This document shows positions 2,856 through 45,879 of a stretch of 64,000 bases of DNA, in pieces. The notes beneath the pieces are model-generated. The model saw nothing but the letters and a program-made list of their open reading frames with translations. It searched no databases and was not told where the DNA came from. The stretch is taken from contig NZ_JAINZP010000023.1 of NCBI RefSeq assembly GCF_020166435.1, forward strand, positions 1-64,000, read 5' to 3'. A program made the position numbers and the translations under genes. Numbering within the stretch: position 1 is the first letter of the stretch; each line of letters begins with the position of its first letter. The DNA comes from Pectobacterium versatile. Lineage in GTDB: Bacteria > Pseudomonadota > Gammaproteobacteria > Enterobacterales > Enterobacteriaceae.

Positions 2856-3581
2856 TTATATCAGCCAGATTAAACTTGCCATACGGCCAGTCACGCCATC
2901 ACGCCGATAAGAGAAAAATTTGTGAGGCTCGCTCACAGTACAGGCATTTCCACCAAAAATTTGCGTTACCCCTGCAGCACGTAAACGCAGACGTGCCAGT
3001 TGGTAGATATCGGCAAAAAATTTGTTTCCTTCAGGCCGAAATGCAGAGGCCGCCGCCGCATCATGCTGAATAAATGCATTCCTAACCTCAGGGCCGACTT
3101 CAAAGGCATCAGGCCCAATAGCAGGCCCCAGCCACGCCATAATTTGCGCGGGTTGCGCACGGAAACAGGCTAACGTTTCTTCCAGTACCCCGGCGTGCAA
3201 TCCCCGCCAGCCAGCATGCGCGGCAGCGACTTCGTCACCGTTGATTGCACAAAAAAGCACGGGCAAACAGTCAGCCGTCATCACCGCACAGACTTTCCCT
3301 TTCTTGTCGGTATAAGCCGCATCACCGCAAACAGACGTAGGGGACACCTCACCAATACGAATCACATCGGTGCCATGAACCTGTTCCAACCAATGCGGCA
3401 TAGAAGGAAGACTGGCCATCTCCACCAGCGTTTGCCGATTTGTGGTGACATGCGAGGGGTCATCACCCACATGATTCCCTAGATTCAGCGAATCATAAGG
3501 TGCACCACTCCCCCCGCCAATGCGCGTCGTACTACAAGATTTCACACTTTCTGGCAAAGGCCAGTCGGGGTATATCAGCAT
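2856..3581 (-). CDS. pgeF: Peptidoglycan editing factor / multicopper polyphenol oxidase-like YfiH
   Basis: Homologue of E. coli YfiH (PgeF; about 243 aa there, 241 here), which helps exclude wrong residues from the murein stem peptide. Family members also act as purine nucleoside phosphorylase/deaminase or laccase-like enzymes in vitro. The zinc-site motifs are visible: TADCLP (about residue 102) and AAHAGWRGLH (about 120), plus an upstream His in LEQVHGTD. It lies 43 bp downstream of rluD on the same strand and is probably co-transcribed. clpB follows from its own promoter. Confidence 0.93.
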   Translation of the reverse strand: MLIYPDWPLPESVKSCSTTRIGGGSGAPYDSLNLGNHVGDDPSHVTTNRQTLVEMASLPSMPHWLEQVHGTDVIRIGEVSPTSVCGDAAYTDKKGKVCAVMTADCLPVLFCAINGDEVAAAHAGWRGLHAGVLEETLACFRAQPAQIMAWLGPAIGPDAFEVGPEVRNAFIQHDAAAASAFRPEGNKFFADIYQLARLRLRAAGVTQIFGGNACTVSEPHKFFSYRRDGVTGRMASLIWLI

Positions 3582-4736: not shown

Positions 4737-5471
4737 ATGACGCGTATGAAATATCTGGTGGCTGCCGCCACGTTGAGCCTGGCGCTGGCTGGTTGCTCCA
4801 GCAATTCCAAAGATGCGGTTCCTGATAGTCCGCCATCTGAAATCTATGCCAATGCTCAACAAAAACTGCAAGACGGCAACTTTAAAGCAGCCATCACGCA
4901 GTTGGAAGCACTGGATAACCGGTATCCCTTTGGCCCCTACTCGCAGCAAGTACAGTTGGATTTGATCTACGCTTATTACAAATCCGCAGAGCTGCCATTG
5001 GCCCAAGCTTCTATTGACCGCTTCCTGCGACTCAACCCGACCCATCCAAACGTGGATTATGTCCTGTACATGCGCGGCCTGACCGACATGGCGCTGGATG
5101 ATAGTGCGTTACAAGGCTTCTTCGGCGTTGATCGTTCCGATCGCGATCCGCAGTATGCTCGCACCGCATTTCGGGATTTCAGTAAGCTCATTCAGGGATA
5201 TCCGAACAGCCAATATGCCACCGACGCAAACAAGCGTTTGGTTTACCTCAAAGAGCGTCTGGCCAAGTATGAACTTTCTGTCGCGCAATACTACACGAAA
5301 CGCGGCGCTTATGTGGCAGTAGTTAATCGCGTTGAGCAAATGCTGCGTGATTACCCAGATACTCAGGCAACGAAAACTGCGTTGCCGTTGATGGAAAATG
5401 CCTACCGTGAACTGCAACTGGCCGCACAGGCGGACAAAGTCGCAAAAGTCATCGCGGCGAATCCAGCATAA
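4737..5471 (+). CDS. bamD: Outer-membrane assembly lipoprotein BamD
   Basis: Essential lipoprotein of the BAM beta-barrel assembly complex, anchored to the inner leaflet of the outer membrane. A signal peptide ends in lipobox LAGC with the lipidated Cys at residue 20. The rest is a TPR array (starting [20 protein letters not shown]) that binds BamA/BamC and substrate C-termini. It is 244 aa (E. coli 245) with close identity along its length. Monocistronic, followed by its own terminator. Confidence 0.97.
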
Positions 5472-5495
5472 ACGACAAGTGACGCGCAGTAATAA

Positions 5496-5522
5496 GACGG
5501 CAGCTTCGGTTGCCGTTTTTTT
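5496..5522 (+). terminator. bamD terminator
   Basis: The stem ACGGCA/TGCCGT around a small loop is followed by seven T residues, 25 nt after the bamD stop. Confidence 0.85.
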
Positions 5523-5687
5523 ATGGTTCGCTCGGTTGGCTATGCACAGCTGAGCAGAAAAAACAGGTTGGCGGGAGTCAACAACAGCGCGGTAACGTCA
5601 ATACATCCTATCAATAATGGCACAGGCCAGATGCCCCCTCAAGTACTTCCCTTCTATTCCCGATGATGCTTCACAAATCGTATTTTC

Positions 5688-5735
5688 TTGACAAAAAGTG
5701 ACGAAAAAAAGCGATCAATATCACGCTTTTTGTCA
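5688..5735 (+). promoter_or_regulatory. Nested inverted repeats upstream of raiA
   Basis: TGACAAAAAG (5689-5698) is inverted at 5726-5735. An inner AAAAAGCG (5706-5713) is inverted at 5724-5731. The left arm includes a TTGACA -35-like element. This lies 58 bp before raiA, so it may be an operator or a folded leader controlling the stress-induced gene. The rest of the 321-nt bamD-raiA gap shows no gene. Confidence 0.4.
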
Positions 5736-5792
5736 CAACTCACTGTATGCTGAAATTATCCAAGACGGACATAGGCAGAGAGGTAAGTTTAT

Positions 5793-6131
5793 ATGACTAT
5801 TAATATTACCAGTAAGCAAATGGATATCACCCCCGCAATTCGTCAACATGTCGAAGACCGTCTTTCTAAGCTGGATAAGTGGCAAACCCAGCTGATTAAC
5901 CCGCATATCATTCTGTCAAAAGAGCCTCAGGGTTTTGTGGCTGATGGCACTATCAGTACGCCAAATGGCCCGCTGGTTGCCAGTGCCAAGCATGACGATA
6001 TGTATGCCGCCATCAATGAGCTAATTACCAAGCTCGAACGCCAGTTGGACAAACTCCAGCATAAAGGTGAAGCCAGACGCGCGGTAGCTAGCGTCAAAGA
6101 AGCGAATCTCCAGCCGACTCAAGAAGAGTAA
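5793..6131 (+). CDS. raiA: Ribosome hibernation factor RaiA (pY, YfiA)
   Basis: Small ribosome-associated inhibitor that sits in the 30S decoding channel in the cold or stationary phase and keeps 70S ribosomes inactive. S30AE/HPF-family fold, 112 aa (E. coli 113). The start [20 protein letters not shown] and the core [14 protein letters not shown] are near-identical to E. coli. The C-terminus is short, so it is the short form rather than long HPF. Preceded by an inverted-repeat region and followed by a strong terminator. Confidence 0.95.
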
Positions 6132-6153
6132 TTCATTCTCTTTACCTCAATAT

Positions 6154-6176
6154 AACGCGCCTGAGGGCGCGTTTTT
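6154..6176 (+). terminator. raiA terminator
   Basis: AACGCGC/GCGCGTT stem with a short loop and a run of five T residues, 22 nt after the raiA stop. Confidence 0.85.
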
Positions 6177-6253
6177 GTATTCCAAACTCCGCAATCCGCA
6201 TCCTAAAGAGCCAACGCTATACCTCGTTTAAGATTGCGCTCGGCGATTTTGTA

Positions 6254-6282
6254 TTGACAGGATGAAAAGCCAACAGTTACCT
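6254..6282 (+). promoter_or_regulatory. pheL-pheA promoter
   Basis: A consensus TTGACA (6254-6259) is followed after 17 bp by TTACCT (6277-6282), 45 bp before the leader peptide. This matches the position of the E. coli pheA promoter, but the -10 box is weak. Confidence 0.6.
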
Positions 6283-6326
6283 TACCTACTCAGAATCTGG
6301 ATATCTTCCTGACTAACCGAGTAAAC

Positions 6327-6374
6327 ATGACAAATAAACTGTTCTTCTTCGTATTCTTTTTCACCTTCCCCTGA
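6327..6374 (+). CDS. pheL: PheA operon leader peptide
   Basis: A 15-codon ORF encoding MTNKLFFFVFFFTFP, with seven phenylalanines. Ribosome stalling on these Phe codons when charged tRNA-Phe is scarce controls whether the downstream attenuator hairpin forms. The E. coli leader is also 15 aa with seven Phe. Confidence 0.95.
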   Translation: MTNKLFFFVFFFTFP

Positions 6375-6420
6375 TTTGGGAGGCGATTCGTCGTAAGAGC
6401 AAGAATACGAAGACGAACAA

Positions 6421-6450
6421 AAAAGCCTCCTGACCAGGAGGCTTTTTTTA
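6421..6450 (+). terminator. pheA attenuator terminator
   Basis: Perfect stem AAAAGCCTCC (6421-6430) / GGAGGCTTTT (6437-6446) with loop TGACCA and a T tract, 47 nt after the leader stop. GGGAGGC at 6378-6384 can pair with GCCTCC as the antiterminator arm. Confidence 0.93.
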
Positions 6451-6479
6451 TATAAGAACATAAGACAGGTAACAGCATC

Positions 6480-7640
6480 ATGACAGACAACCCATTACTG
6501 GCACTGCGAGAACGCATCAGCGCATTGGATCTGCAATTAATTGAATTGTTGGCACAAAGACGAGAACTCGCGTTGGACGTTGCCCGCAGCAAATTGCATT
6601 CGCATCGCCCAATCCGTGATAAAGAGCGTGAGCGTGATTTGCTGGACAAACTGACAGCCGCTGGGAAAAAGCATCATCTTGATGGTCACTACATTACCCG
6701 CTTATTCCAGCTCATCATTGAAGATTCGGTACTGACGCAGCAGGCACTCTTACAGCATCACCTCAACCAAACAACGTCACACTCTGCCCGTATTGCGTTT
6801 CTCGGTCCGAAAGGATCTTATTCCCATCTTGCCGCTCGCCAATATGCCGCGCGACACTTCGAACAATTTATCGAATGTGGTTGCCAGAAATTTCAGGACA
6901 TTTTCAACATGGTGGAAACAGGGCAAGCGGACTATGCCGTTCTGCCGATTGAAAACACCAGCTCTGGTTCGATTAACGACGTCTACGATCTGCTGCAACA
7001 CACGGCTTTATCCATCGTCGGCGAATTAACCAATCCGATAAATCACTGCGTTTTAGTTGCCACCGATACGTCATTGGAACAGATCGAAACGGTTTACAGC
7101 CACCCGCAACCGTTCCAGCAGTGCAGCCATTTCATTAACCGTTTTCCACACTGGAAGATTGAATATTGTGAGAGCACGGCTGCGGCGATGGAAAAAGTCG
7201 CGGCGCTCAACTCACCAAAAGCAGCAGCGCTCGGCAGCGAAGCCGGTGGTCAGCTTTATCAGCTACAGATGCTGGAACACGATCTGGCCAATCAGTCGCA
7301 AAACATCACCCGCTTCATTGTATTAGCACGTAAGCCCATTGACGTGACGGAACAAGTGCCAGCAAAAACCACGCTAATTATGGCAACCGGTCAACAGTCA
7401 GGTGCGCTGGTGGAAGCCCTGTTGGTATTGCGTGATAACGGCATTGTGATGACCAAGCTGGAATCCAGACCGATCAACGGTAACCCGTGGGAAGAGATGT
7501 TCTATCTGGACGTACAGGCCAACCTGCGCAGCGATGCCATGCAGAAAGCGCTAAAAGGATTAGCCCCTATAACCCGCTCGTTAAAAGTGTTGGGCTGCTA
7601 CCCGAGTGAAAACGTCGTCCCTGTCGATGTGAACGAATAG
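6480..7640 (+). CDS. pheA: Bifunctional chorismate mutase / prephenate dehydratase
   Basis: P-protein making phenylpyruvate from chorismate for phenylalanine synthesis. It has an AroQ chorismate mutase at about residues 1-95 ([21 protein letters not shown]) and a prephenate dehydratase domain at about 105-285 ([19 protein letters not shown]). The C-terminal ACT regulatory domain contains [10 protein letters not shown] and [18 protein letters not shown], the Phe feedback site. It is 386 aa, the same as E. coli. Regulated by the upstream pheL attenuator. The stop codon is created by a 17-bp tandem duplication. Confidence 0.97.
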
Positions 7641-7656
7641 TCGATGTGAACGAATA
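7623..7656 (+). repeat. 17-bp tandem duplication at the pheA stop
   Basis: The 17-mer at 7623-7639, which encodes the last codons VDVNE, is repeated directly at 7640-7656. The first base of the second copy completes a TAG stop, while the second copy would have ended in TAA. The protein sequence is unaffected. Confidence 0.9.
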
Positions 7657-7660
7657 ATTG

Positions 7661-7690
7661 AAAAAGCCATCCTGGTATCCCCGGGATGGC
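7661..7690 (-). terminator. aroF-tyrA terminator
   Basis: GCCATCC/GGATGGC stem followed on the minus strand by TTTTT, 31 nt after the tyrA stop. The plus-strand side has a poorer T tract, so it may only partly serve pheA. Confidence 0.75.
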
Positions 7691-7721
7691 GTCTTAAACA
7701 CAACCAAGATAGCGAACGTAC

Positions 7722-8843
7722 TTATTGACGAATATCGTTTGCCTGGCGTAAAAGCACCCGGCTCTCCGCCTGAAAGCGTTTGGCATAGTCACCAAACCAG
7801 TGTTCGACCTTCTTGAAGCTGTTGATAAACTCTGCTTTATCCGTCTGCTCCAGTAGTTCAATCGCCTCGCCAAAACGTTTGTAATAACGCTTAATCAACG
7901 CCAGATTATCCGCTGAAGACATAATAATGTCGGCATAAAGCTGCGGATCCTGCGCAAACAACCGACCAACCATGATCAATTCCAGACGATAGATTGGCGA
8001 TGACAGCGCTAATAGCTGTTCAAGCTGCACGTTCTCTTCCGCTAAATGCAGGCCATACGCGAATGTCGCAAAGTGACGAAGCGCCTGAATGAACATCATG
8101 TTCTGATCATGTTCGACTGCACTGATACGATGCAGACGCGCGCCCCACACCTGAATCTGTTCCAGTAACCACTGGTAGGCTTCCGGCTGCCGCCCATCGC
8201 AATAGACGACAACCTGCTTGGCAAGGCTACCGCTGTCTGGCCCAAACATAGGGTGTAACCCAAGTACCGGGCCACTATGCACTGCCAGCATCGCCTGAAG
8301 CGGGCCATTTTTTACCGATGCCAAATCAACCAAAATACAGTCATCTGGTAAAGCAGGCAGACGGGCAATAACCTGTTCAGTCACGTGAATCGGCACGCTA
8401 ACAATCACCATACCGGCATCAGACAGCAGTTCATCAGCACGCGGCCAATCATCTTGCTCCAGGATCCTCACCTGATAACCAGACAGCGTCAGCATTTTCT
8501 CAAACAGGTTGCCCATTTGCCCCCGGCCACCGATGATGACAACCGGGCGTAACTGCGGGCACAGCGTTTTAAAGCCTTTGTCGTTTTCACTGGTATAAGA
8601 CTCACGCATGGTACGCCGCAGGATATCCTCAATGAGATCCGGCGGAACCCCCATCGACTCCGCTTCTTTACGACGTGAGCTGAGCATGGCCGCTTCACGA
8701 TCGGGCGCATAGATGGGCAAACCATGACGGCTTTTCACTTCACCCACTTCCGCCACCAAACGCAACCGACGTGATAACAGCGCGACAAGCTCCTTATCTA
8801 CCTCATCTATCTGATCACGTAATACGGTCAGTTCAGCTACCAT
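7722..8843 (-). CDS. tyrA: Bifunctional chorismate mutase / prephenate dehydrogenase
   Basis: T-protein that converts chorismate to 4-hydroxyphenylpyruvate for tyrosine synthesis. It has an N-terminal AroQ mutase (about 1-90, [22 protein letters not shown]) and then an NAD-binding Rossmann motif, [11 protein letters not shown] (about residue 103). The dehydrogenase helical domain follows. It is 373 aa, as in E. coli. It starts 6 bp after the aroF stop and its ribosome site AGGAGA overlaps the aroF end, so it is translationally coupled. Tyrosine control is expected through the aroF promoter. Confidence 0.97.
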
Positions 8844-11283: not shown

Positions 11284-11545
11284 CATCCTTCCGAAGATAA
11301 AACGATGATCCATACTCATCAGCACTTTAGCTGGCAAAGCGCTATGGCTCATCGCATCTGGTAACAATTCCACTCACTTTTGTACTCACACAGAAATACG
11401 TCAGACATACCTCCCCTCTATTATCGCTCACATTAAATAGTCACATTAAGTTATTAACAATCTGATGCTGGGATAACGAAAGGCATACCTCACTGATAGT
11501 TAAAACCATTATTCCTGATAGCGATTGATATTATGGAGTGCTCAT

Positions 11546-12484
11546 ATGTCCGGTTCAAGCAAGCCTCATAACTCGTCTCTAAATAGCAGTTCAAGACTCT
11601 TATCACACGCTACCTCATCACAGGAAAGCCATGATGAACGAGTCGCTGCGGTAAAGAACAACATTATCGAGTCCGGCGACCATCTCGGCATTTCTGTAGA
11701 GGAACAACTCGCGATTCTGGAGGCGTTCTCCCACCTTGAACTAGGCAAGTTTTTACTAAAACATCACGGGTTAAATGCGTACTGGACGCATAATGTGATA
11801 ACACATCAGCCAGCTCACTATGTTAATCCACTCGAAGAAATCATCTACACACAGTTACCCAGCGTTTTGGCAACACGTGAACGATTTGGTATTTTCCAAC
11901 GTCTGCTTCAAGAGCTCTTGCGCCCCGACGCCATCATGGTATCGGTCCCTTGTGGCGTCATGGCCGATTTACTGCTGCTGGACTATACGCGGCATCGAGA
12001 TGTGAAATTAATCGGAATCGATCTGGATAAACAGGCGCTGGAAGAAGCTTATAAGCTTGCCAGTCAGCAAGGGTTAGAAAACCAGATATCGTTGGTGCTT
12101 ACTGATGCCTGGACAATGGATTTGGCAGCACAAGCAGATGTGATTACCAGCAACGGACTCAACGTCTATGAACAAGATGATGACAAAGTTACCGAGCTTT
12201 ACCGCGTGTTCTACTCAGGTTTAAAGCCAGGAGGTACGCTGATCACCAGCTTTATGACACCGCCTCCTACGCTGTCACAAGATTCCCCATGGATAAACAC
12301 CGATCCAAAATTGCTAGCCCTCCAATATGTGCTTTTCTCACGTATTATCGGGGCAACATGGACAGCGTTTCGTACCCACAAAAAAACACAGTCGCAGCTA
12401 GAGCAGGCAGGATTCACAGATATTCAGTTCATTAACGATCGTATGCATATGTACCCAACAGTCATCGCGAATAAGCCGTTCTGA
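11546..12484 (+). CDS. Class I SAM-dependent methyltransferase, substrate unknown
   Basis: 312 aa. The C-terminal two-thirds is a Rossmann methyltransferase: modified motif I VSVPCGVMADLLLLD, acidic motif II LIGIDLDKQALEEA, then LTDAWTMDL and the late strand LKPGGTLITSFM. The first 90 residues form a helical domain with a Ser-rich start. The start is set at the ATG preceded by GGAG with 7-nt spacing; an ATG seven codons upstream is possible. A single gene of about 1 kb next to the rplS attachment site, not part of the usual core order, so likely acquired. No substrate motif is recognised. Confidence 0.75.
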   Translation: MSGSSKPHNSSLNSSSRLLSHATSSQESHDERVAAVKNNIIESGDHLGISVEEQLAILEAFSHLELGKFLLKHHGLNAYWTHNVITHQPAHYVNPLEEIIYTQLPSVLATRERFGIFQRLLQELLRPDAIMVSVPCGVMADLLLLDYTRHRDVKLIGIDLDKQALEEAYKLASQQGLENQISLVLTDAWTMDLAAQADVITSNGLNVYEQDDDKVTELYRVFYSGLKPGGTLITSFMTPPPTLSQDSPWINTDPKLLALQYVLFSRIIGATWTAFRTHKKTQSQLEQAGFTDIQFINDRMHMYPTVIANKPF

Positions 12485-12515
12485 GCAGAGTAAAAAACGG
12501 TATCAACACAATATT

Positions 12516-12570
12516 TTGATCGCCGTAACCGATCAATATTGAAAAATTGATCTGTATAAACGTTTATAAA
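12516..12570 (+). promoter_or_regulatory. Putative regulated promoter of chromosomal small-RNA unit
   Basis: TTGATCG-N7-CGATCAA (12516-12536) is followed by palindrome TATAAACGTTTATA (12555-12568) overlapping a -10-like TATAAAAT, with no consensus -35. The same two elements at the same spacing occur at 38172-38228. This suggests an activator or repressor site with a factor-dependent promoter. The factor is unknown. Confidence 0.55.
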
Positions 12571-12576
12571 ATAACC

Positions 12577-12661
12577 ATGTCTAATGTCATCATGGTACTG
12601 AAATTCAAACAATAATGATGGCACCAGGGAAAGCTAAGCCCACCAAGATGGTGGGCTTTTT
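12577..12661 (+). ncRNA. Candidate small RNA, chromosomal copy
   Basis: Predicted transcript of about 85 nt with no ORF. Hairpin 1 is TGTCATCAT (12585-12593) paired with ATGATGGCA (12615-12623), including one G-U pair. A linker AGGGAAAGC follows, then terminator GCCCACCA-AGA-TGGTGGGC (12638-12656) with T residues. A homologous unit in the prophage (38233-38322) conserves the promoter, linker and terminator stem. It swaps a C-G pair for U-A in hairpin 1, which supports a structured RNA. Function unknown. It could also be the scar of an earlier prophage at the same site. Confidence 0.55.
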
Positions 12662-12770
12662 ACTGCCAACACGGTCATGCCTTAGACTCGGGCCTTAAGC
12701 AAAGGACTTATTCCCAGAAAGAGGACTACCACACAGCCATGATCTGCCGCTACTTTGCCGCCATTTAGAT

Positions 12771-12800
12771 AAAAAAAAGCCTAGCGAATTCGCTAGGCCA
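12771..12800 (-). terminator. Ancestral rplS operon terminator, now outside attL
   Basis: CCTAGCGAATTCGCTAGG-type stem with eight T residues on the minus strand. Before integration it followed rplS. In the lysogen it lies downstream of the phage integrase gene and should end int transcription. Confidence 0.85.
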
Positions 12801-12857
12801 TTGAAAAATAACAACTTTCGGATGTTGCGAAAGCGCTATCTTAGTTAAGACGCTCTT
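12801..12857. repeat. attL core, 57-bp direct repeat
   Basis: Identical, base for base, to 45477-45533. It covers the last codons, stop and 3' flank of rplS. Left of it is the chromosomal terminator; right of it is phage DNA. Confidence 0.95.
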
Positions 12858-13990: not shown

Positions 13991-14530
13991 TTAACGCCCA
14001 CTCTTCTTATATCGATTTACATATTCGTAAGATTTCAAGAGTTCTCCAGTTTCACGAATAATAACACCATCAATAACTCTATCTACTCTAAATGTTCTCA
14101 ATGCTTTTGCTGTATGACAATAGCCCGTGATATATATCAAGTCGCATTCTTTTACATCGATAGTTCTATAGCTCTGCTTGCCTACAGCGTCTTCATATTC
14201 AAAAGCAATTTCTTTTAAATTAACCTTTGATGAAAAAACCCTGAGTTTATCTGATGTTGTAGATACTTCTCCCGATTCACTTTGCTTTTTATTAGCTGCT
14301 TTTTCTTTGTAGCTATAACCAGCAATCAATAAGCAAACGTTTAAAAAACAGAAAAAGTAAAGAATTGGGTAATCATCGAAAATCAAAGAAATTAAGGAAA
14401 TGATAAAAAAAGAAAATGAATAACAAAGAGAAGATATCTTAACGATCTTCTCTGAGTAACGACCACTGTAGCTATATCTAACAATATAAAATGAAAGGAT
14501 AGCGCCAATAATACTAATTATTACATCCAC
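13991..14530 (-). CDS. Membrane protein with WYL-like C-terminal domain
   Basis: 179 aa. Two to three hydrophobic helices occupy residues 1-72 (VIISIIGAILSFYIV; YSFSFFIISLISLIF; ILYFFCFLNVCLLIAGY). A cytosolic part follows with CDLIYITGYCHTAKALRTFRVDRV, which matches the end of WYL ligand-binding domains (aromatic/Leu, YC/H, R..F.L.RI). It is AT-rich compared with the phage core and lies between repressor and integrase, ending 4 bp before int. A role in superinfection immunity or in sensing infection is only inferred. Confidence 0.6.
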   Translation of the reverse strand: MDVIISIIGAILSFYIVRYSYSGRYSEKIVKISSLCYSFSFFIISLISLIFDDYPILYFFCFLNVCLLIAGYSYKEKAANKKQSESGEVSTTSDKLRVFSSKVNLKEIAFEYEDAVGKQSYRTIDVKECDLIYITGYCHTAKALRTFRVDRVIDGVIIRETGELLKSYEYVNRYKKSGR

Positions 14531-34258: not shown

Positions 34259-34862
34259 TACCCGCCTGCTGCCTGTCGGATCGTCCGCGCTGGAAGTCGC
34301 CGCCGCCACTGCCTGTGCCGAGATTACCCGCGTACCCGTTCCCCTGCGCCTGCTGTGGAACCCGGACACCTGCCCGGCACACCTGCTGCCGTATCTAGCG
34401 TGGGCGTTTTCCGTTGACCGCTGGGATGAACGCTGGCCGGAGAGCGTGAAACGGCAGGTGATCCGCGATGCGTTCTTTATCCATCGTCACAAAGGCACCA
34501 TCGGTGCGTTGCGTCGCGTGGTGGAGCCGTTTGGTTATCTGATCCGTATCAGTGAATGGTTTCAGAACGGCGGAGAGCCTGGCACGTTCCGACTGGATAT
34601 CGGCGTGCAGGATAACGGCATCACAGAGGAAACCTTTTACGAGCTGGAACGCCTGATTGCCGACGCCAAACCCGCGTCACGTCACCTGCTGGGGCTGAAT
34701 ATCAACCTCGACACACAGGGTGCGGCCTATGTTGCCGCTACAACATACAGCGGTGATGACCTGACCATTTACCCCTATTTTCCTGAAACCATTACTGTAT
34801 CCGGTCTGGATGTGACCGGGGCAGCACTTCATTTAATCGACAACGTGAGCGTAACCGCATGA
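34251..34862 (+). CDS. I: Tail protein I
   Basis: 203 aa (P2 I 176). Core LLWNPDTCPAHLLPYLAWAFSVDRWDERWPE and HRHKGTIGALRRVVEPFGY. Links baseplate to fibre. The extra C-terminal 30 residues (TTYSGDDLTIYPYFPETIT) are a lineage extension. Confidence 0.93.
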   Translation: MSDTRLLPVGSSALEVAAATACAEITRVPVPLRLLWNPDTCPAHLLPYLAWAFSVDRWDERWPESVKRQVIRDAFFIHRHKGTIGALRRVVEPFGYLIRISEWFQNGGEPGTFRLDIGVQDNGITEETFYELERLIADAKPASRHLLGLNINLDTQGAAYVAATTYSGDDLTIYPYFPETITVSGLDVTGAALHLIDNVSVTA

Positions 34863-36799
34863 GTGCAACCTATTTTGCCCTGTTAACTAACATCGGCGCG
34901 GCCAAACTGGCTAACGCGACCGCGCTGGGTAGTCGTCTGAGCATCACCCGGATGGCCGTGGGTGACGGCGGCGGCGTATTGCCAACCCCAAACCCGGCAC
35001 AAACCAAACTGATTAACGAAAAGCGCCGGGCGGCACTCAACAACCTGATCATCGACCCGAAAAACCCCAGCCAGATTATCGCCGAACAGGTCATTCCCGA
35101 AAATGAAGGAGGTTGGTGGGTGCGGGAAGTCGGCCTGTTTGATGACGACGGCAATCTGATTGCTGTCGCCAATTGCCCTGAAACCTACAAGCCGCTATTG
35201 CAGCAGGGAAGCGGCCGCATTCAGACGGTCCGCATGATTTTGATTGTCAGCAGTACCGACGCCGTGACGCTGAAAATTGATCCGGCTGTCGTGCTGGCAA
35301 CGCGGGGTTATGTGGATGATGCACTGGCGGAGCATGAAAAGAGCCGCAAACACCCTGACGGGACACTGACGGCAAAAGGATTCGTGCAACTGAGCAGCGC
35401 GACGAACAGCGACAGTGACGTACTGGCCGCAACCCCTAAAGCGGTGAAAGCAGCGAATGATAACGCCAATGGGCGCGTACCGTCTGGCCGCAGGGTGAAC
35501 GGTAAGGCGCTGACAGCAGACATTACGCTGGGTGCCGGGGATGTGGGGGCATACACCAAGCTGGAAACTGATACGGCTGTTTCTGTCGCCGTAGCTGCCG
35601 CGAACACGGCCGCTACGGCAGCGGCTAACGCCAACACGAACGCTAATGGCCGCGTGCCGTCCGGGCGTACCGTCAACGGTAAAGCGCTGTCGGCAGATAT
35701 CGCGCTGGGTGCCGGGGATGTGGGGGCATACACCAAAGTAGAAACTGACACCCGAGTCGCGGCAGCAACCACCGCCGCGAATAATGCCGCTACGGCAGCG
35801 ACCAATGCTAACACGAACGCTAATGGCCGGGTGCCGTCTGGCCGTACCGTTAACGGCAAAGCGCTGTCGGCGGATATCGCGCTGGGTGCCGGGGATGTGG
35901 GGGCATACACCAAAGCCGAAACTGACACCCGTGTCGCGGCAGCAACCACCGCCGCGAATAATGCCGCTACGGCAGCGACCAATGCTAACACGAACGCTAA
36001 TGGCCGGGTGCCGTCTGGCCGTACTGTCAACGGTAAAGCGCTGTCGGCAGATATCGTGCTCACTGCTGGTGACGTTGGTGCGCTGACTGCGGGTGGCACT
36101 GCGGCTGCGGCTACTAAGCTGGCTACAGCCCGCAAAATCAACGGCGTGGCATTTGACGGTTCGGCAGATATTAGCGTTGATTCTGACTGGTCACAGATTA
36201 AAAACGTTCCCGCGGCATCATATGACGTCGCGGGTGTGGTGTTGTTGAGCTCGTCAATTAACACTAATAGCAGAACTATTGCTGCGACAGCGCAGCAACT
36301 TTTTACGGCTCACTCGATTGCAATTAACGCGCAGACAAAAGCGAATGCAGCGTTGCCAGCGGATGGAACTGCGGCGGCGGCGACTAAATTGGCAACCCCC
36401 AGAAAAATTAATGGCGTAGCATTTGATGGTACATCGGACATTGATCTAAATGGGTCACGAGTATGGATTTCGGGTGAGTACACGCCTGCAACCAGCACGC
36501 CAATCGTAGTGTCTCACGGATTGGTCGGTATTAATCCTCTGCACTGTCGTTGCGATGTGTTGATTAAATGTGTCGTCGCAGAAGGCGAATACCGCGTCGG
36601 TGAGTTCGCGATTAATCCCATGACACTTTTCATGCAACAAGGTGTCGCCCATCCCTATTCGTTGTTGCCAGCATTGAATGCAGGCACTGTGCAGTTGAAC
36701 ATCATGCACTATCTAGCTGCGTCATTTAAAACCAGCACGATAGGCAATCAGCAACTGAATATGGCTAATTGGCGTTGTATTCTTCGTATTTTTTATTAG
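34859..36799 (+). CDS. H: Tail fibre protein (gpH)
   Basis: 646 aa. The P2 H-type N-terminal attachment domain (about 1-150, YFALLTNIGAAKLANATALG..GDGGG) is followed by about four repeats of a 59-residue unit (NANGRVPSGRTVNGKALSAD..GAGDVGAYTK). A divergent receptor-binding tip follows (about 535-646, VWISGEYTPATSTPIVVSHG). The tip decides host range. Part of the V-W-J-I-H operon. Confidence 0.93.
   Translation: MSATYFALLTNIGAAKLANATALGSRLSITRMAVGDGGGVLPTPNPAQTKLINEKRRAALNNLIIDPKNPSQIIAEQVIPENEGGWWVREVGLFDDDGNLIAVANCPETYKPLLQQGSGRIQTVRMILIVSSTDAVTLKIDPAVVLATRGYVDDALAEHEKSRKHPDGTLTAKGFVQLSSATNSDSDVLAATPKAVKAANDNANGRVPSGRRVNGKALTADITLGAGDVGAYTKLETDTAVSVAVAAANTAATAAANANTNANGRVPSGRTVNGKALSADIALGAGDVGAYTKVETDTRVAAATTAANNAATAATNANTNANGRVPSGRTVNGKALSADIALGAGDVGAYTKAETDTRVAAATTAANNAATAATNANTNANGRVPSGRTVNGKALSADIVLTAGDVGALTAGGTAAAATKLATARKINGVAFDGSADISVDSDWSQIKNVPAASYDVAGVVLLSSSINTNSRTIAATAQQLFTAHSIAINAQTKANAALPADGTAAAATKLATPRKINGVAFDGTSDIDLNGSRVWISGEYTPATSTPIVVSHGLVGINPLHCRCDVLIKCVVAEGEYRVGEFAINPMTLFMQQGVAHPYSLLPALNAGTVQLNIMHYLAASFKTSTIGNQQLNMANWRCILRIFY
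35464..36060 (+). repeat. 177-bp tandem repeats within the tail-fibre gene
   Basis: Units begin near 35467, 35644, 35821 and 35998. The last three are almost identical at DNA level; the first is more diverged. The 177-bp spacing keeps the reading frame, so recombination would change fibre length without breaking the gene. Confidence 0.85.
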
Positions 36800-38171: not shown

Positions 38172-38228
38172 TTGATCGTTACTGCCGATCAATAACACCT
38201 AATCGATCTGTATAAACGTTTATAAAAT
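38172..38228 (+). promoter_or_regulatory. Putative regulated promoter of prophage small-RNA unit
   Basis: TTGATCG-N7-CGATCAA (38172-38192) and palindrome TATAAACGTTTATA (38211-38224) overlapping TATAAAAT (38221-38228). Same elements and same spacing as at 12516-12570. The upstream repeat is centred about 51 bp before the predicted start, an activator-like position. Confidence 0.55.
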
Positions 38229-38232
38229 AATC

Positions 38233-38322
38233 ACCCGAAATGTCATTATGTTGTTGGTTTTAAAAATAATGACATATCAGGGAAAGCAAAGCCCACCGTT
38301 AGCGAGACGGTGGGCTTTTTTT
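38233..38322 (+). ncRNA. Candidate small RNA, prophage copy
   Basis: About 90 nt, no ORF. Hairpin 1 is ATGTCATTAT (38240-38249) perfectly paired with ATAATGACAT (38266-38275). The linker is CAGGGAAAGC (38279-38288), then terminator GCCCACCGT / ACGGTGGGC (38291-38315) and seven T residues. Compared with the chromosomal copy, loops differ while stems, linker and promoter are kept, and one pair changes from C-G to U-A. It lies between the acyltransferase and the FI operon and stops before FI. Confidence 0.6.
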
Positions 38323-38450: not shown

Positions 38451-39620
38451 ATGAGTGATTTTCACCACGGCGTGCAGGTCGTCGAGATTAACGACGGCAC
38501 GCGCGTTATTTCCACCGTTTCCACCGCGATTATCGGCATGGTGTGTACCGCCGCCGATGCCGACGCGGCCACCTTTCCCCTCAATACCCCGGTACTGATT
38601 ACCAACGTGCTGTCCGCCGTCGGCAAGGCCGGGAAAAAAGGCACGCTGGCCGCTGCCCTGTCTGCCATCGCCGACCAGTCCAAACCCGTCACCGTTGTGG
38701 TGCGCGTGGCCGAGGGTAAAGATGAAGCCGAAACCATCAGCAATGTGATCGGCGGCAGCGACGAAAACGGCAAATACACCGGGATGAAAGCCCTGTTAGA
38801 TGCCCTGTCGGTAACAGGCGTGAAGCCGCGCATTCTCGGTGCGCCGGGGCTGGACTCGCTGCCCGTTGCCACGGCGTTAGCGTCCATTTGTCAGTCGCTG
38901 CGTGCTTTTGGTTACGTCAGCGCGTGGGGCTGCAAAACCCTGTCGGACGCCATTAATTACCGGGAAAATTTCAGCCAGCGTGAACTGATGGTGATCTGGC
39001 CGGATTTTATCGCGTGGGACACCACGGCCAACGCCAGCGCCACCGCGTATGCCACCGCCCGCGCCCTCGGTCTGCGTGCCAAAATCGACCAAGAGACAGG
39101 CTGGCATAAAACCCTGTCTAACGTCGGCGTGAACGGCGTGACGGGTATCAGCGCCTCGGTGTATTGGGATTTGCAGGCACCCGGCACCGACGCGGATTTA
39201 CTGAATGAAGCAGGTGTCACCACGCTGGTTCGTAAGGACGGCTTCCGCTTCTGGGGTAACCGCACCTGTTCTGACGATCCGCTGTTCCTGTTTGAGAACT
39301 ACACCCGCACCGCACAGGTACTGGCCGATACGATGGCCGAAGCGCACATGTGGGCGGTGGATAAGCCCGTTACCGCAACGCTTATCAAAGACATTATCGA
39401 AGGTATCAAGGCCAAGTTTCGTGAGCTGAAAACGGGCGGCTACATCATTGACGCCGATTGCTGGCTGGACGAAACCGCCAACGATAAGGAAACGCTGAAA
39501 GCGGGGAAGCTGTATATCGATTACGACTATACCCCCGTTCCCCCTCTGGAAAATCTCACCCTGCGCCAGCGCATCACCGATAAATATCTGGTGAATCTGG
39601 CTGCATCGGTCAACAGCTAA
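38451..39620 (+). CDS. FI: Tail sheath protein (gpFI)
   Basis: 389 aa (P2 FI 396). Contractile sheath: MSDFHHGVQVVEINDGTRVISTVSTAIIGMVCTA, and C-terminal DADCWLDETANDKETLKAGKLYIDYDYTPVPPLENL. First gene of the tail operon. Confidence 0.96.
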   Translation: MSDFHHGVQVVEINDGTRVISTVSTAIIGMVCTAADADAATFPLNTPVLITNVLSAVGKAGKKGTLAAALSAIADQSKPVTVVVRVAEGKDEAETISNVIGGSDENGKYTGMKALLDALSVTGVKPRILGAPGLDSLPVATALASICQSLRAFGYVSAWGCKTLSDAINYRENFSQRELMVIWPDFIAWDTTANASATAYATARALGLRAKIDQETGWHKTLSNVGVNGVTGISASVYWDLQAPGTDADLLNEAGVTTLVRKDGFRFWGNRTCSDDPLFLFENYTRTAQVLADTMAEAHMWAVDKPVTATLIKDIIEGIKAKFRELKTGGYIIDADCWLDETANDKETLKAGKLYIDYDYTPVPPLENLTLRQRITDKYLVNLAASVNS

Positions 39621-45420: not shown

Positions 45421-45439
45421 CGTGGACATAATGTGGACA
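45421..45439. other. Integrase arm-type sites, ogr side
   Basis: CGTGGACA and TGTGGACA spaced 11 bp apart, the same pair and spacing as at 12949-12967 on the other prophage end. Confidence 0.7.
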
Positions 45440-45446
45440 TCAAGAC

Positions 45447-45474
45447 AAAAAAAAGCCTAGCAAACCTGCTAGGC
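45447..45474 (-). terminator. Phage-borne replacement terminator for rplS
   Basis: On the minus strand, GCCTAGCA/TGCTAGGC with eight T residues. It has the same outer stem as the ancestral terminator at 12771-12800 but a different loop and inner stem bases. It now ends the rpsP-rimM-trmD-rplS transcript. Confidence 0.85.
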
Positions 45475-45476
45475 AT

Positions 45477-45879
<403 letters not shown>

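Follow-up and report, generated by a model that had tools for sequence, protein, structure and literature searches.

A small-RNA-like unit shared by the Pectobacterium chromosome and several phage types, with a probable Dam/OxyR-type switch

Why does the chromosome of Pectobacterium versatile carry, just outside a prophage, a short small-RNA-like unit of which that prophage holds a second version? The window, i.e., the whole analysed stretch of 64,000 nucleotides, contains both. An earlier note made from the sequence had described 12516-12661 (copy A) and 38172-38322 (copy B) as sharing one layout, and they are indeed homologous promoter-to-terminator units. Both carry the TTGATCG-N7-CGATCAA dyad, an identical block of 26 bp (12549-12574 in copy A, 38205-38230 in copy B), and a common linker followed by a GCCCACC/GGTGGGC terminator with a T run (Table 1). 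In copy A the second dyad starts 10 bp after the first, and inspection of the sequence gave no good -35 at the usual distance from the -10. The intrinsic terminator with a U tail, a trait of Hfq-type sRNAs, is present in both copies. In line with the earlier note, no substantial ORF is apparent; by eye only mini-ORFs of 5-13 codons occur in the copies, with start or stop codons that differ between them. A small peptide product was rejected on a by-eye reading in which the start codons vary among copies. A search of the whole genome (4.83 Mb, 69 contigs) with copy A returned copies A and B only (next best E 0.37), and even with up to 3 mismatches allowed a 25-mer of the 26-bp block had no third site in the assembly (none at all for the reversed control).

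Table 1. Features of the two copies and of neighbouring genes (window positions)
Feature	Position	Strand	Basis
Methyltransferase gene upstream of copy A, marker of the chromosomal locus	11525..12484	+	Pfam
Copy A dyad 1, TTGATCG-N7-CGATCAA, putative OxyR dimer site with two Dam (GATC) sites	12516..12536	+	P22 gtr match; OxyR consensus 7/10
Copy A dyad 2, TTGATCT-N7-CGTTTAT, weaker putative OxyR dimer site with third GATC, overlaps -10	12547..12567	+	OxyR consensus 6/10
Copy A -10 like TATAAA	12565..12570	+	Sequence; TTTATAAAA invariant in 54 copies
Copy A putative chromosomal small RNA, about 85 nt, predicted start	12577..12661	+	Sequence, fold, alignment
Copy A linker AGGGAAAGC, between both hairpins	12626..12634	+	CAGGGAA core shared with several distant homologues from other genera
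Copy A intrinsic terminator	12636..12661	+	Two-sided stem-pair changes across the family (no shuffle control)
Prophage tail fibre gene	34859..36799	+	Pfam
Copy B dyad 1, TTGATCG-N7-CGATCAA, two GATC	38172..38192	+	Sequence
Copy B dyad 2, TCGATCT-N7-CGTTTAT, third GATC	38203..38223	+	Sequence; OxyR consensus scoring
Copy B -10 like TATAAA	38221..38226	+	Sequence, alignment
Copy B putative prophage small RNA, about 90 nt, predicted start	38233..38322	+	Sequence, fold, alignment, tree
Copy B linker AGGGAAAGC	38279..38287	+	Sequence, alignment
Copy B intrinsic terminator	38288..38322	+	Fold; family alignment
Prophage tail sheath gene, just downstream of copy B	38451..39620	+	Pfam; same order in 22/39 IMG/VR loci

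The prophage is P2-like, judged from its sheath, fibre, CI and integrase genes (Pfam), and its ends are formed by a 96-bp repeat at 12762-12857 and 45438-45533 (91% alike); the attR side reads as the 3' end of rplS. By these positions copy A lies directly outside attL, and copy B is flanked by the tail-fibre region and the sheath gene; an opposite-strand acyltransferase gene separates it from the tail fibre gene. The prophage also holds a gene for a WYL-domain protein between integrase and CI repressor (13991-14530).

The earlier note held that a structured RNA is what has been conserved; on this view the first hairpin would be the functional element and the promoter incidental. The 9-10 bp hairpin is seen in the single-sequence folds of both window copies, and most of 54 homologues form a similar one. 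Both copies also fold better than their dinucleotide shuffles (z -2.97 for copy A, -6.66 for copy B), which is probably due in large part to the terminator. The changes taken as compensatory, C-G to U-A at the seventh pair and G-U to A-U at the third, are present in the single folds, but in registers 3 nt apart; as homologous bases pair in these shifted registers in the 54-copy alignment, neither change is compensatory, the seventh-pair one being slippage. The alignment comprises the 54 non-redundant copies out of 97 placed (97% identity filter on the RNA part); L029 (terminator insert), L030 and L109 (skipped) and L063/L072 (B. roseae, no terminator end found) were left out, and the ends of L064, L066, and L067 were extended by hand. 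Across the 54 copies no pair of hairpin 1 was changed on both sides in the host register (92.8% of cells paired) and one pair (2 cells) in the phage register (83.1% paired), and in neither register did covariation of this hairpin exceed that of shuffles, so that the proposed proof by compensatory changes does not hold. The 5' arm is nearly invariant, and the stem is broken in several lineages, e.g., in L017 among the hosts and in the GCCATTATG group among the phages. With RNAalifold, pairing falls on the DNA dyad and the terminator rather than on hairpin 1; run with no control, it gave five pairs with both sides changed in some sequence, four of them in the terminator. Mean column identity was 0.98-0.99 in the half-sites, 0.98 in the core promoter, 0.95 in the 5' arm, and 0.89 in the linker, and decreased to 0.83 in the 3' arm, 0.75 in the loop, 0.67 in the leader, and 0.65 in N7. 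Conservation is higher in the control region than in the RNA body, and the unit is not supported as a covarying RNA. Despite the hairpin in both window copies, the lacking covariation, the broken stems and the better conserved control region make it very unlikely that the hairpin is what selection has kept. What stands of the earlier reading is the conserved small-RNA-like unit; the covariation does not, and the dyad, noted merely as a common block, turned out to be the informative part.

The operator reads TTGATCG-N7-CGATCAA-N10-TTGATC. All three Dam sites (in copy A at 12518, 12531 and 12549) are found in 52 of the 54 copies (54/54 and 53/54 for those of dyad 1, 53/54 for that of dyad 2). 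The GATC sites lie inside OxyR-type half-sites, as in the OxyR/Dam phase-variation loci gtr, agn43, opvAB and mom, at which OxyR competes with Dam methylase, and the arrangement of two putative dimer sites with a 10-bp spacer (10 bp also in mom, 11 bp in gtr and agn43) is that expected for reduced OxyR. The P22 gtr region contains TTGATCG-GTAACAA-CGATCAA and TTGATCG-CTTGTAT-CGATCAA, in which all 14 fixed bases equal those of the sRNA dyad. Sites for LexA, FNR, FlhDC, H-NS, Cra, PurR, and lux boxes had been candidates for the identity of the dyad and were dropped after this match. At gtr, it is reported that OxyR binds the element, that its binding is blocked by GATC methylation, that binding in turn prevents methylation, that expression is phase variable and that half-site spacing fits reduced OxyR (Broadbent et al., 2010; PMC2909390); the same text states phase variation of mom as unsettled. 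For opvAB a behaviour like that of gtr is reported, again with half-site spacing that fits reduced OxyR (PMC3350482), and GATC-bearing OxyR sites that score 7-8 of 10 (PMC12902445). The agn43 element reads CGATCAA, 11 bp, TCGATCG-N7-CGATCGA and that of Mu mom CGATCGA, 10 bp, TCGATCG-N7-AGATCGA. Against the OxyR consensus ATAGNTNNNANCTAT the sRNA dyads score 7/10 and 6/10 and the scored gtr, agn43, and mom sites 7-10 (gtr 8, 10, 8; agn43 8, 8). In the window a score of 7 is reached at 0.25% of positions and a score of 6 at 1.7%. As opvAB sites with GATC score 7-8/10, the 7/10 of dyad 1 is no reason to discard it; the 6/10 of dyad 2 is a weak match. The host encodes Dam and an OxyR of 302 aa that is 89% identical to that of E. 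coli.

OxyR-type half-sites in a host that encodes OxyR could also belong to an ordinary oxidative-stress sRNA like OxyS, regulated by OxyR but not heritably switched. The spacing and the GATC-filled half-sites are, however, those of loci which are reported as Dam-sensitive and indifferent to OxyR oxidation, and we consider such an sRNA quite unlikely. It is likewise conceivable that another dyad-binding regulator, LysR-type or phage-borne, acts here and that the GATCs are incidental, given that the OxyR consensus match is only moderate and that the operator also occurs before two chemoreceptor genes and near WYL/YafY regulator genes elsewhere. This appears unlikely, as the dyad is identical to the experimentally studied gtr element and the three GATCs are all conserved.

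The reading that we prefer and regard as probable is that copies A and B are the chromosomal and prophage members of a Dam/OxyR-controlled, probably phase-variable sRNA family, a phage moron kept by the host. OxyR would occupy dyads 1 and 2 when they are unmethylated, and once bound would most likely keep the RNA off, since dyad 2 covers the -10; at agn43, too, OxyR acts as a repressor according to a review (PMC13076061). Activation by OxyR is possible too, as there is no evident -35; with one poor half in dyad 2 and its overlap with the -10, the sign of control is uncertain. Dam methylation would exclude OxyR and let the RNA be expressed, and as the methylation state would be inherited, a clone should be a mix of ON and OFF cells.

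Homologue searches returned many further copies in Pectobacterium, related genera and IMG/VR phage contigs, and this large family supports a conserved small-RNA-like unit with host and prophage homologues. The statement in the earlier note that no described family has this layout agrees with Rfam, which gave no match at either locus beyond weak ones below threshold. The copy A locus was recognisable by DNA search in 25 of 25 Pectobacterium genomes and intact in 22 of them in the fetched sequences; the methyltransferase gene adjoins it in the Pectobacterium and Samsonia loci. The chromosomal copy of G022 (L029) carries an insertion in the terminator loop; this insertion, near position 1500 of the locus, has inverted ends and lengthens the terminator stem. 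In G009 (L030) and G014 (L057) the chromosomal copy is truncated, with the methyltransferase gene still beside it. Both genomes have an intact prophage copy, and a nearby integrase in L057 is 96% identical to that of the window. A phage copy is thus found in 2/2 hosts with a truncated copy vs. 12/25 overall, two hosts being too few to show compensation. The 12 second copies all lie in phage-tail genes: seven directly before a sheath gene of the window's type, two by a second, opposite-strand sheath type and three after Tfa, the latter in clusters that may be remnants or tailocins.

Copy B was matched in 9 of 246 genomes of the family, the weakest match being probably due to chance, and the exact pattern retrieved 20 named stretches (Pectobacterium, Samsonia, Brenneria, and Lonsdalea) together with 39 IMG/VR contigs. 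Phage copies are carried by 38 of these contigs (22 at sheath type 1, 8 at type 2, 8 in other phage contexts), and one (L109) has a chromosomal flank. In phages the unit either closes the tail-fibre region or follows a Tfa or baseplate gene, and a promoter-like sequence and a terminator placed between phage genes in several phage types are the marks, at the sequence level, of a phage moron. A sequence-only model gave matches at E 0.001 or better in 50 of 392 family genomes, reaching at least 60 bits in 16, and matched 10 of 295 genomes of the order, with more than 36 bits only in two Pectobacterium genomes. Among 27 loci with weak model matches beyond the close family that were read by eye, many have the operator and fewer the whole RNA; in some distant family members from other genera (e.g., L224) a CACCAGGGAA-like linker and a terminator persist with little of the hairpin. 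INPHARED phages and PLSDB plasmids gave no convincing sRNA copy, and E. coli genomes gave operator-sized pieces or no match and no whole sRNA. Weak matches to phi80 and Fraca were traced to the operator of cor and not to the sRNA, and one further set of phage matches covers the terminator end of the query only. In the Lonsdalea loci L065 and L066 the sRNA is accompanied by a DUF3289-like gene (cf. L097) and small membrane-protein frames, about 2.3 kb from apparent flhD/flhC/motA.

In the window's genome the exact dyad occurs three times, in copies A and B and at L144:2000-2021 (G000:C5:47200), the last between an apparent acs and a small frame with no Pfam match. The pattern TTGATMG-N7-CGATCRA-N10-TTGA had, with one mismatch allowed, 79 matches in the genus, distributed over 25/25 genomes (reversed control 0). 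Thirty of these were fetched and comprise 22 sRNA copies, seven chemoreceptor-type sites and one acs-type site; the other 49, read by letters only, include a recurrent one-mismatch site, TTGATCGGTAACGCCGATCGATACGATCGCATCGA. The chemoreceptor (MCP) genes behind the operator are two paralogues by Pfam, with the composite GATC operator about 0.45-0.6 kb upstream (L145:2070-2140 and L147:1603-1675; G000:C23:321070 and C14:58103), and may possibly be phase variable themselves. In two unrelated genomes the operator lies a few hundred bases from genes for YafY/WYL-domain regulators (L150, E. coli ET896, 3001-3047; L068, 6151-6196).

In IMG/VR at least 120 stretches contain the composite operator in its exact form, and 79 new loci were read from these, with lineages not de-duplicated. 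A Cor-like frame follows within 400 bp in 47 of them, counted by a regular expression that misses some (e.g., the lipoprotein frame of L298); in nine a Tfa end lies just upstream, and 23 have neither. In phi80 and Fraca the exact composite operator stands directly before the annotated cor. HMM searches named Cor in both Cor-like frames tested. Six further frames that follow the operator comprised a transcriptional repressor and five without a family; judged from these eight frames the slot is not reserved for exclusion genes. Ten upstream frames were three Tfa, two "membrane associated" moron, and one each baseplate, major tail protein, holin, integrase and unnamed. One operator, often in one kind of place, thus precedes an exclusion lipoprotein in some phages and an RNA in others.

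In 9 of 24 sRNA contexts (L050, L051, L053, L062, L102, L104, L108, L122, and L128) the Tfa frame extends across dyad 1 to a stop codon immediately behind it (...GAT CAA TAA), so that the operator doubles as coding sequence; a baseplate frame does the same in L207. This overlap, the adjoining tail genes, and fibre genes that differ between carriers would fit a unit that is mainly a portable terminator and a block of recombination homology for tail-fibre cassette swaps, its RNA having no function in trans. Such a role would not explain why the full switch element and the 5' arm are conserved, nor why a chromosomal locus away from tail genes exists in 25/25 Pectobacterium genomes, intact in 22, and it seems quite improbable.

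In the tree the host copies (16 rows, support 92/90) form one clade and the main phage copies another (28 rows, 97/91), apart from it. Of the Brenneria copies, two are placed close to the host clade and one groups with two phage copies; Lonsdalea is distant. The bootstrap had not settled, the root is arbitrary and the support of the host clade is just below the starred level. These separate clades do not favour the view that the prophage recently took up the host copy next to it, with the same reservations about root and host support (92/90). A CRISPR array of 41 repeats in G021 (L055, about 4995-7782, reverse strand), presumably of type I-F, has a 32-nt spacer identical to the promoter of five loci (L058, L081, L098, L110, and L117, L081 being the same record as L058) and 3 mismatches away from the chromosomal copy of G021 itself. 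This suggests that the G021 lineage has met a phage with such a promoter.

By analogy with cor, gtr, and opvAB the RNA would act in trans on surface functions. The 5' arm and the linker are conserved, and either may contain a seed. The exact linker complement (11 bases) occurs at seven other genomic sites. Four of these fall within frames, and the remaining three have no same-strand frame of at least 90 aa near; in this exact search none of the seven lies directly before a gene start, and no target is evident. A CsrA/RsmA sponge seems less likely, with a single CARGGA site in the linker. Other phages' protein morons, notably cor, occupy the moron position behind the same operator, and it is tempting to speculate that the RNA most likely lowers a surface structure used by phages, through base pairing; we offer this tentatively, as a possible but doubtful mode of action.

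Dam/OxyR switches have been described for mom and for genes of surface proteins and LPS enzymes. Among the papers listed in searches of open-access PMC, none was seen to describe a stand-alone small RNA under such a switch. As the control sequence matches the switch used for surface-changing genes, the unit may be a heritable RNA switch that affects encounters between cells and viruses, and if so, one heritable switch could alter several mRNAs together in part of a clone. In a wider and somewhat unlikely scenario, it would be a phase-variable, RNA-based system of superinfection exclusion and surface control, in which phages exchange protein morons such as cor and the sRNA in a tail-adjacent slot behind one Dam/OxyR operator and Pectobacterium has kept one chromosomally, perhaps coordinated with the two chemoreceptors behind the same operator. 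The shared operator also suggests epigenetic control of cor and of other morons next to tail genes, an idea directly testable in E. coli K-12 lysogens.

Among known systems OxyS is a small RNA under OxyR that is induced by peroxide; we know of no GATC switch for it, nor, to our knowledge, is there a Dam/OxyR element for the phage-borne anti-sRNAs of EHEC. The latter resemble the present unit as prophage-carried small RNAs that are reported to act in host networks (PMC4104026). Kwenda et al. (2016; PMC4710047) name nine novel sRNAs, the majority of them antisense or 5' UTR transcripts and in this unlike the present unit; fwd_6 (122 nt, 3' UTR of ECA3097) could conceivably be the same as it. The gtrABC operon of P22 is likewise a phage moron with TTGATCG-N7-CGATCAA dyads, paired GATCs 13 bp apart and OxyR sites spaced 10-11 bp, but has three OxyR half sites and four GATCs and encodes O-antigen enzymes, whereas the sRNA unit has two dyads, three GATCs and a putative non-coding RNA. 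The agn43 (flu) gene of E. coli, with its leader RNA/IsrC, shares half-site, 11-bp spacer, dyad, and three GATCs, but continues into an adhesin gene. Its OxyR site is also placed differently relative to the promoter. The agn43/IsrC leader of K-12 (L219:490-640) holds GACATTCAGGGAACAA, which resembles, by eye only, the family linker and GACATATCAGGGAAAG of copy B (CAGGGAA). Mu mom has half-site, 10-bp spacer, dyad, and three GATCs in common with the unit but drives a DNA-modification gene. In opvAB of Salmonella, GATCs lie within OxyR sites of 7-8/10 and the ON state gives phage resistance, although opvAB is a host operon with four OxyR sites that encodes membrane proteins (PMC3350482; PMC12902445). 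Finally, the Cor superinfection-exclusion morons of phi80, Fraca, and others have the identical composite operator and the same tail-gene neighbourhood, and differ in that their product is a lipoprotein rather than an RNA.
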